DNA of 55,277 nucleotides from an uncultured Verrucomicrobiota bacterium (GTDB lineage: Bacteria; Verrucomicrobiota; Verrucomicrobiia; Limisphaerales; CAIQOK01), in contig CAIQOK010000150.1 in NCBI GenBank assembly GCA_903873415.1, positions 1 to 55,277 on the forward strand, in the 5' to 3' direction. Position 1 is the first letter of the stretch. Each line of letters starts with the position of its first letter. The translations under genes and the position numbers were made by a program. Positions 39,238 to 40,895 of the stretch are shown piece after piece. Under the pieces are notes generated by a model, which saw only the letters and a list, made by a program, of their open reading frames with translations, was not told the origin of the DNA and made no database searches.

Positions 39238-40098
39238 GTGCCAAGCTCCGAAAGGATTCACTCTGATGCAGTCGACGGGCGGGGGAATGCGGATTTATTG
39301 TCCAAGGTTTGTCTGAGCGGTTTTCTGGGGTGGAAAATAATCCGTTTTATTCTCACGCTGCGCGGCTTGGGCGCCTTTGCGCTGATCACGCTGGGCGTCT
39401 TGTTCAGTCGTTTCGCGGTTGCCCGGCGTCTGATTCATCCGCTGATGGTCCGTGAGATTTCCCGGGCCGGTTTGCGCCTGCTGCCGATGTTTCTTTTTCT
39501 TTCGGTTGCACTGGGCTTTCTGGTCATCGGCCAGAGCGTTGCGGTGCTGGCGCGGGTGGGTGCCATCAATTATCTCGGCACCATCATGGTGGTGGTGGTG
39601 GTGCGGGAGCTTGGGCCGCTGCTTGCGGCCCTGTTGGTGCTGGCACGGGTCGGCACTGCCAACGTTGTCGAATTGGGCACGGCGCGCGCCCTCGGAGAGG
39701 TGGAAGCGCTTGAGGCGCTCGCCATTGATCCGATTCATTATTTCGTGGTGCCAAGGGTTGTGGGTTTGGCTGCTGGAGTGTTTGCCCTCACGGTTTATTT
39801 GATTCTGGGGGCCTTGGTCAGCGGCTATTTTTGGGCCTTTTTGCAGGATGTGCCGCTGTTGCCCGGGGATTATTTTCGCCAGCTGGCCGCAGCCCTGAGC
39901 GGACTGGACTTTCTATTGTTGACCTGCAAAGCCTGCTTCTTTGGATTCATTATTGCCATCGTGACGTGCTATCACGGATTGGCCCAGCCGCTGCGATTGG
40001 AAGAAGTCTCGCATGCAACGGTGCGCGCCGTGGCGCAGAGCGTCGTCGCCTGCGTGTTGCTCGATGTGCTCTTTATCCTGATTTACCTCCTTGTATGA
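39238..40098 (+). CDS. mlaE: MlaE-family ABC transporter permease
   Basis: A 286-residue inner-membrane permease of the MlaE type, part of a phospholipid or other lipid transporter spanning inner and outer membranes. It has about five to six hydrophobic helices with family segments LRLLPMFLFLSVALGF, VVVRELGPLLAALLVLARVG and LGTARALGEVEALEALAIDP. The start is uncertain: GTG 39238 opens the longest frame, and the first ~30 residues are not family-like. Its stop overlaps the mlaF-like gene by 4 nt. Confidence 0.88.
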   Translation: MPSSERIHSDAVDGRGNADLLSKVCLSGFLGWKIIRFILTLRGLGAFALITLGVLFSRFAVARRLIHPLMVREISRAGLRLLPMFLFLSVALGFLVIGQSVAVLARVGAINYLGTIMVVVVVRELGPLLAALLVLARVGTANVVELGTARALGEVEALEALAIDPIHYFVVPRVVGLAAGVFALTVYLILGALVSGYFWAFLQDVPLLPGDYFRQLAAALSGLDFLLLTCKACFFGFIIAIVTCYHGLAQPLRLEEVSHATVRAVAQSVVACVLLDVLFILIYLLV

Positions 40099-40895
40099 TG
40101 GACGGCCCTATTGCCACCACGGCCCCGGCACTGGAATTGCGCGCGATGTCAGTCCGGTCCCGGCAGCATCCCGGCTGCGCCGGGATCCGGAATATCAATT
40201 GGAAGGTTGCGCCCGGTGATTTCTGGGTGGTGGGCGGCATGATTGGCGCGGACCGGAGTGATTTGCTGATGCTGGCCGGCGGCCTGCTGGCACCAGAGTG
40301 CGGGGAACAATTTTTTTTTGGAGGGCCGATGCCCCTGTTTGAGGAGGCGAATCTGGCTCAACGACTCCGTCTGGGGTTTGTTTTTCAAGGGGGGCAGTTG
40401 CTGAACCAGCTCACACTTGCAGAGAATATCGCCCTGCCCTTGCGCTATCATAAAGACGTCTCAGCCGCCGAGGCGGAAGCCGATGTGCGTTGGTTGCTCG
40501 AGCTGACGGGGCTGAGCCGGTGGGCCGATCGTTCTCCAGGGGAGGTGTCGGTTGATTCCTGCCAGCGTGCCGGTTTGGCAAGGGCCTTGATTCTCAAGCC
40601 CGATGTTTTGTTTATGGATAATCCTCTCGCTGGTCTGGACGCTCCGCAGCGCCACTGGTGGCGACAATTCCTTGCAGGCCTTGCGGACGGCCCGGAGTGG
40701 CGACAGGGCCGGCCCATGACACTGCTGGCAACTGGGGAAGATCTGCGTCTGTGGCGTGGCTGTGCGCGGCAATTTGCAATCCTTAAGGAGAGCAGTTTTG
40801 TTCCGCTGGGGACGTGGGCCGAGGCTCAATTTGCTGCGGTGGAATTTCTTTCGGAACCGGTTTTCGGGCTTGGTGGGCAAGAGGGAAGCTGTTAA
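40095..40895 (+). CDS. MlaF-like ABC ATPase with degenerate catalytic motifs
   Basis: Position and residual similarity (GFVFQGGQLLNQLTLAENIALPLRYH, LARALILKPDVLFMDNPLAGLD) make it the ATPase partner of MlaE. Every catalytic motif departs from consensus: Walker A is GGMIGADRS (47-55) with Arg54 for Lys, the signature is VSVDS (151-155) for LSGGQ, Walker B ends in Asn176 for Glu, and the H-loop position is Gly214. The Q-loop Gln98 and D-loop AGLD remain. The frame is intact and overlaps mlaE, so it is probably an expressed, weakly active or inactive subunit rather than a pseudogene. It is 266 residues long. Confidence 0.85.
   Translation: MMDGPIATTAPALELRAMSVRSRQHPGCAGIRNINWKVAPGDFWVVGGMIGADRSDLLMLAGGLLAPECGEQFFFGGPMPLFEEANLAQRLRLGFVFQGGQLLNQLTLAENIALPLRYHKDVSAAEAEADVRWLLELTGLSRWADRSPGEVSVDSCQRAGLARALILKPDVLFMDNPLAGLDAPQRHWWRQFLAGLADGPEWRQGRPMTLLATGEDLRLWRGCARQFAILKESSFVPLGTWAEAQFAAVEFLSEPVFGLGGQEGSC

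Follow-up and report, generated by a model that had tools for sequence, protein, structure and literature searches.

The route by which lipids reach the outer membrane is an open question, as is the ATP requirement of MCE systems in this traffic. MceG of the mycobacterial Mce systems is a working ATPase. In Escherichia coli MlaFEDB, the coupling helix of the MlaE permease binds MlaF (PMC7790496), and MlaF carrying either K47A or E170Q singly fails to complement (PMC7367683); lipid passage from MlaD to MlaC is spontaneous in this species, ATP hydrolysis preventing such outward transfer (PMC10212509). Neither of the MCE partners PqiA and LetA contains an ATPase domain (PMC12436622; PMC10897342), and PqiA could act passively, via an as yet unidentified ATPase or through the proton motive force, all three being possible (PMC10897342). 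Here we describe an mlaE-mlaF-MCE operon of an uncultured bacterium of the order Limisphaerales (Verrucomicrobia subdivision 3), found on contig CAIQOK010000150.1 (assembly GCA_903873415.1), of which the 55,277 nucleotides analyzed are referred to as the window. Judged from its motifs, the sole nucleotide-binding domain (NBD) of this operon, an MlaF-like ATP-binding cassette (ABC) subunit termed pseudo-MlaF (P0001), is very probably both conserved and hydrolysis-dead. The operon would thus encode a conserved pseudo-ATPase version of the MlaE-F-D lipid transporter that works without ATP hydrolysis of its own, a reading that we consider reasonably likely.

The locus resembles E. coli MlaFEDB in its MlaE-family permease, its MCE protein and its NBD, for which MlaF is the top fold match, but this NBD lacks the signature, the catalytic Glu, the His and the Lys, no MlaB gene lies within the mlaE-mlaF-MCE stretch of the window, and no match to the MlaC and MlaA families was found in the genome by searches whose controls were positive. 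The nearest arrangement is therefore the minimal MlaEFD system of Veillonella parvula (PMC10665443), which likewise consists of just mlaE, mlaF and mlaD and has a long MlaD (419 aa, against 391 aa in the window), although the model of the window MCE protein contains no recognized outer-membrane barrel and its tail is of low confidence. Equivalent kinds of motif loss occur in the degenerate NBDs of heterodimeric ABC proteins such as Pdr5, CFTR and TAP (PMC7756269); there, however, the second NBD keeps a working site, whereas pseudo-MlaF is the only NBD of its operon, with no intact NBD encoded alongside it and no second NBD gene between the mlaE and MCE genes. PqiABC and LetAB are likewise MCE lipid systems in which the membrane partner lacks an ATPase domain, but this partner is PqiA or LetA, the MCE domains are several and no NBD-like subunit is present (PMC10897342, PMC12436622). 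Mycobacterial Mce systems share a YrbE/MlaE-type permease and set a precedent for an ATPase encoded elsewhere (PMC9947336), while a dead NBD is not known to be part of their scheme.

Motif losses in pseudo-MlaF and their conservation

The window protein reads GMIGADRS where Walker A calls for GxxGxGK[ST], Lys54 being replaced by Arg and Gly53 of the P-loop by Asp. It has no LSGGQ-type signature, and its Walker B Asp is followed by Asn instead of the catalytic Glu; the Q-loop Gln is present but the H-loop His is not. A preliminary description made from the sequence had reported Arg for the Walker A Lys, VSVDS for LSGGQ and Asn for the Walker B Glu in an intact frame coupled to mlaE, all of which hold in the translation (one open frame, a PF00005 match and an ATGA overlap). 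The Gly53 change had escaped it, and of its replacement of the H-loop His by Gly only the absence of His stands, as the canonical His column aligns with the adjoining Glu215.

Relatives were sought within the bacterium's own phylum. An orthologue of the window MlaE (E below 1e-60) is present in 60 of 78 genomes of the order, with a clean gap before the paralogues, which begin near 1e-24; 46 loci were taken from named contigs by way of these orthologues. Motifs were then counted in an alignment of 97 pseudo-MlaF of the order, the window protein among them, and 20 canonical MlaF of that order. The complete motif set occurs in none of the 97 and in all 20 canonical proteins. The signature is absent from every pseudo-MlaF and present in every canonical MlaF; the catalytic Glu is lost in 93/97 (4 keep it and 68 have Asn), the H-loop His in 91 of the 94 readable members (3 keep it) and the Q-loop Gln is kept in only 10/97, each of these residues being found in 20/20 canonical MlaF. 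Other positions are retained in the family: Walker A Lys54 in 92/97, P-loop Gly53 in 96/97 and Walker B Asp175 in 95/97. The substitutes at the lost sites are themselves conserved, with Asn at the Glu site (68/97), Trp155 (69/97) and Asp215/216, and an Asp56 follows the P-loop Ser in 70/97, Asp215 being present in 60/94.

A search of the class (286 genomes) with an NBD profile recovered pseudo-MlaF in two further families (f143 and f144), whose members carry the same motif losses, and a score gap separated pseudo-MlaF from other proteins (4.5e-68 vs 2.5e-52). When 388 genomes sampled across the phylum were queried with MlaE, matches arose just in the bacterium's own genome and in one other of the same order; in view of the class search this sampling was too sparse, as the family extends beyond the order. 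The MCE gene lies downstream of pseudo-MlaF in 86 of 96 other loci and was not detected in the remaining 10. Collectively, these data show that pseudo-MlaF has been retained, together with MlaE and MCE partners of its own, across the order and in no fewer than two further families.

Sequencing error or frameshift was considered and rejected, as relatives share the pattern and the motif columns keep their length. A compensated frameshift is likewise unlikely, given this constant length and the lack of such motifs in the other frames, inspected by eye; the preliminary description had already judged error a poor explanation. The motif losses are real and look like a functional trait, not an error.

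The conserved acids leave room for another explanation, in which nucleotide is hydrolyzed by unusual chemistry, Asp56 and the Asp215/216 pair at the H-loop substituting for the missing residues. Conservation of these acids, of Lys54 and of Asp175 is what speaks for it, and the retained Lys and Asp could indeed reflect residual or unusual ATP chemistry, a point that weighs against a hydrolysis-dead NBD. We nonetheless regard such chemistry as improbable: Glu, signature, Gln and His all lack conservation, the window protein lacks even the P-loop Gly and Lys, some five losses of this Lys would be odd for a working ATPase, and E170Q or K47A by itself abolishes the function of E. coli MlaF (PMC7367683).

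Five near-invariant residues, W36, W44, Y118, W188 and W220, are specific to pseudo-MlaF, the canonical proteins having mostly Phe, Phe, Glu, Thr and Ala, respectively, at these positions.

Ancestry of the losses and selection on the operon

In a tree of MlaE, the partners of pseudo-MlaF (psi-type MlaE) form one clade against the canonical MlaE of the order (SH-aLRT 100). Together with the motif counts, this topology shows that the signature, the catalytic Glu, the H-loop His and, in most cases, the Q-loop Gln were lost in a common ancestor. The simplest history would be that signature, Glu and His disappeared once, long ago, and that a few members kept or regained one of them. The Walker A Lys requires five changes on the tree, the window being one of them, and was lost on about five independent occasions. 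A relative of the same genus (G001, locus L010) retains GSGKSD in Walker A, and from the alignment the loss of Gly53 and Lys54 is particular to the lineage of the window. The four motif losses, which the preliminary description took to be independent, are thus all real, but three are ancient and family-wide, and the Walker A loss alone is local.

Among the closest pairs, the ratio of nonsynonymous to synonymous substitutions (dN/dS, NG86) is 0.07-0.32 for pseudo-MlaF and mostly 0.04-0.23 for its MlaE, which places pseudo-MlaF under purifying selection, with functional but no catalytic constraint. Higher values come from pairs involving L082, the MlaE of which is divergent or damaged. Relaxed selection in the window's own lineage is unsupported, the comparison with L010 giving a dN/dS of about 0.23 (dN 0.39; dS 1.73, which is saturated). 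The window MlaE also sits on a faster branch of the MlaE tree.

Whether the operon is simply becoming a pseudogene under relaxed selection bears directly on these figures. Pseudo-MlaF is the faster-evolving partner, with a mean pairwise identity of 42% (its MlaE, 59%; canonical MlaF, 56%), and the Lys too is gone from some lineages. However, the frame is open at nearly all loci, dN/dS lies well under 1, the replacements are conserved (Asn in 68/97, Trp155 in 69/97) and the operon is kept across many families, such that we give decay very little credence; at the level of the species, dN/dS and conservation rule it out. The combination that the preliminary description had named as fatal to its proposal, intact motifs in close relatives together with relaxed selection, was not found: three of the four losses recur in relatives, and dN/dS values are low.

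L082 combines a very long MlaE branch with an ordinary pseudo-MlaF, which suggests a frameshift in its contig. One stop codon occurs within the matched pseudo-mlaF stretch of G510:C13, G570:C5 and G494:C220, and one within that of mlaE in G033:C6; frameshift or real decay in individual lineages is possible.

Partners and possible mode of action

The AlphaFold2 model of pseudo-MlaF is a confident NBD fold (predicted local distance difference test 92), and its best match in the PDB is E. coli MlaF in MlaFEDB (6xbd, TM 0.80). The coupling-helix stretch of psi-type MlaE (residues ~146-172) is its most conserved segment (mean 0.90, vs 0.65-0.79 elsewhere), and N111, P115 and Y118 of pseudo-MlaF, directly past the Q-loop, are near-invariant; by analogy with the ABC fold, these three residues may line the docking groove. 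Conservation of the coupling helix and of these residues suggests that pseudo-MlaF still docks on MlaE.

A subunit that keeps its interface and not its catalytic site might only be a scaffold or sensor, in a complex that tethers or senses and no longer transports lipid. The new near-invariant W36, W44, W188 and W220, which suggest a new surface or core, would fit such a role, but conservation is good both in the body of MlaE (mean pairwise identity of 59%) and in the MCE protein, whose MCE domain is intact. This favors a lipid path that is still in place, and we hold this alternative to be rather improbable.

Hydrolysis could also be borrowed. The genome contains two further mlaE genes (contigs C34 and C58), both close to an MCE gene and an intact mlaF; the search for a second MlaF proposed in the preliminary description therefore succeeds twice, although each copy has an mlaE and an MCE gene of its own as neighbors. 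In a mixed dimer, one of these canonical MlaF would join pseudo-MlaF on psi-type MlaE and provide hydrolysis as in heterodimeric ABC exporters. The degenerate NBD of Pdr5 (Cys for the Walker A Lys, Asn for the Glu, Tyr for the His, LNVEQ as the signature) does work beside a good one (PMC7756269), and MceG is reported to be an ATPase shared by several mycobacterial Mce permeases (PMC9947336). Known heterodimers such as Pdr5, however, group their defects in one composite site while the other stays ordinary (PMC7756269), whereas the pseudo-MlaF chain is defective in both Walker B/H-loop and signature, hence on both interface faces, and a canonical partner would therefore leave neither composite site fully ordinary. 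Since each canonical MlaF adjoins partners of its own, and the coupling helices of the two MlaE types are unlike (ALGEVEALEAL vs the consensus VYQEIDALRTM), we deem the mixed dimer unlikely.

Among the options raised in the preliminary description, lipid movement without ATP is the one that we favor. In such a pseudo-ATPase transporter, a pseudo-MlaF homodimer unable to hydrolyze ATP would dock on the MlaE coupling helix and serve as an assembly part or gate, and lipid flow through the complex would be driven by lipid gradients or by affinity along the MCE tunnel. Given the spontaneous passage from MlaD to MlaC in E. coli, a passive outward path could remain where the NBD is dead. The Walker A Lys and Walker B Asp that most relatives retain may have a structural role or may allow nucleotide binding, without hydrolysis, to set the gate; Asp56, beside the phosphate loop in 70/97, may count against such binding, and in the window's species even this gating has probably been lost. 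That the complex acts as a conduit independent of ATP hydrolysis seems to us evenly balanced. The fuller proposition, an order-wide ABC-type lipid transporter whose sole NBD is a conserved hydrolysis-dead homodimer and which forms an ATP-hydrolysis-independent, perhaps outward-moving conduit, is put forward tentatively, at slightly less than even likelihood.

Two further points weigh against this picture: docking of the NBD on MlaE is inferred from conservation, and the model of the MCE protein (a helix at 8-46, then MCE beta strands and a long helical tail) is confident only for residues ~11-140. The tail being poorly predicted, the model is too weak to carry a transenvelope role, and we make no claim that the protein reaches across to the outer membrane.

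A natural MlaE-MlaF-MCE complex whose ATPase is dead and which has long been conserved would be a ready-made test of the energy requirement: if lipid moves through it, MCE transport needs no ATP hydrolysis. Comparing it with the ordinary Mla systems that the cell also has could tell effects of direction and of energy apart. The type is probably undescribed, since a search of the open-access literature, subscription papers lying outside its coverage, returned no paper on the family.

Locus organization and annotation

The genes run mlaE, pseudo-mlaF, MCE on the same strand, the start codon of pseudo-mlaF overlapping the stop of mlaE (Table 1). The mlaE product belongs to the MlaE permease family, above the curated cut-off, pseudo-MlaF to the ABC ATPase domain family by a single match, and the third protein to the MCE/MlaD family, with one MCE domain and an N-terminal transmembrane helix.

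Table 1. Genes of the locus and motif sites of pseudo-MlaF, in window coordinates
Feature	Position	Strand	Support or conservation
mlaE-like permease, intact, 286 aa	39238..40098	+	PF02405 E 8.5e-49, 166.5 bits vs cut-off 22.5
Degenerate MlaF-like ABC subunit (pseudo-MlaF, P0001), 266 aa	40095..40895	+	PF00005 E 5e-14, 53.5 bits vs cut-off 25; ATG 40095, stop 40893-40895
Walker A region GGMIGADRSDLL, Lys54 to Arg, P-loop Gly53 to Asp	40233..40268	+	Lys in 92/97, Gly in 96/97 family members
Signature site, VSVDS replacing LSGGQ	40545..40559	+	LSGG in 0/97 family, 20/20 canonical MlaF
Walker B VLFMDNP, Asp175 kept, catalytic Glu176 to Asn	40605..40625	+	Glu 4/97, Asn 68/97, Asp175 95/97
H-loop region LLATGEDL, no His	40722..40745	+	His in 3/94 readable family, 20/20 canonical
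MCE (MlaD-like) protein, 391 aa	41002..42177	+	PF02470 E 4.8e-9, 36.8 bits vs cut-off 25.1

PF00005 is matched by all 69 aligned members of the family, and annotation through this domain or through gene order labels pseudo-MlaF an ATPase, which it almost certainly is not. The MlaF equivalog NF008809 gives it 82.8 bits against an NCBI cut-off of 441, the model being narrow and liable to miss distant true MlaF. The neighboring gene cinA had no match at the other pseudo-MlaF loci, many of which have short flanks. Four records titled Proteobacteria, Akkermansia muciniphila and Methylacidimicrobium (L077, L079, L048 and L071) fall within the Limisphaerales clade, and their titles look wrong. Finally, the MCE protein and its orthologues end in an almost invariant motif, GLKRHWLLRSAF, an ending absent from the genome's two other MCE proteins.
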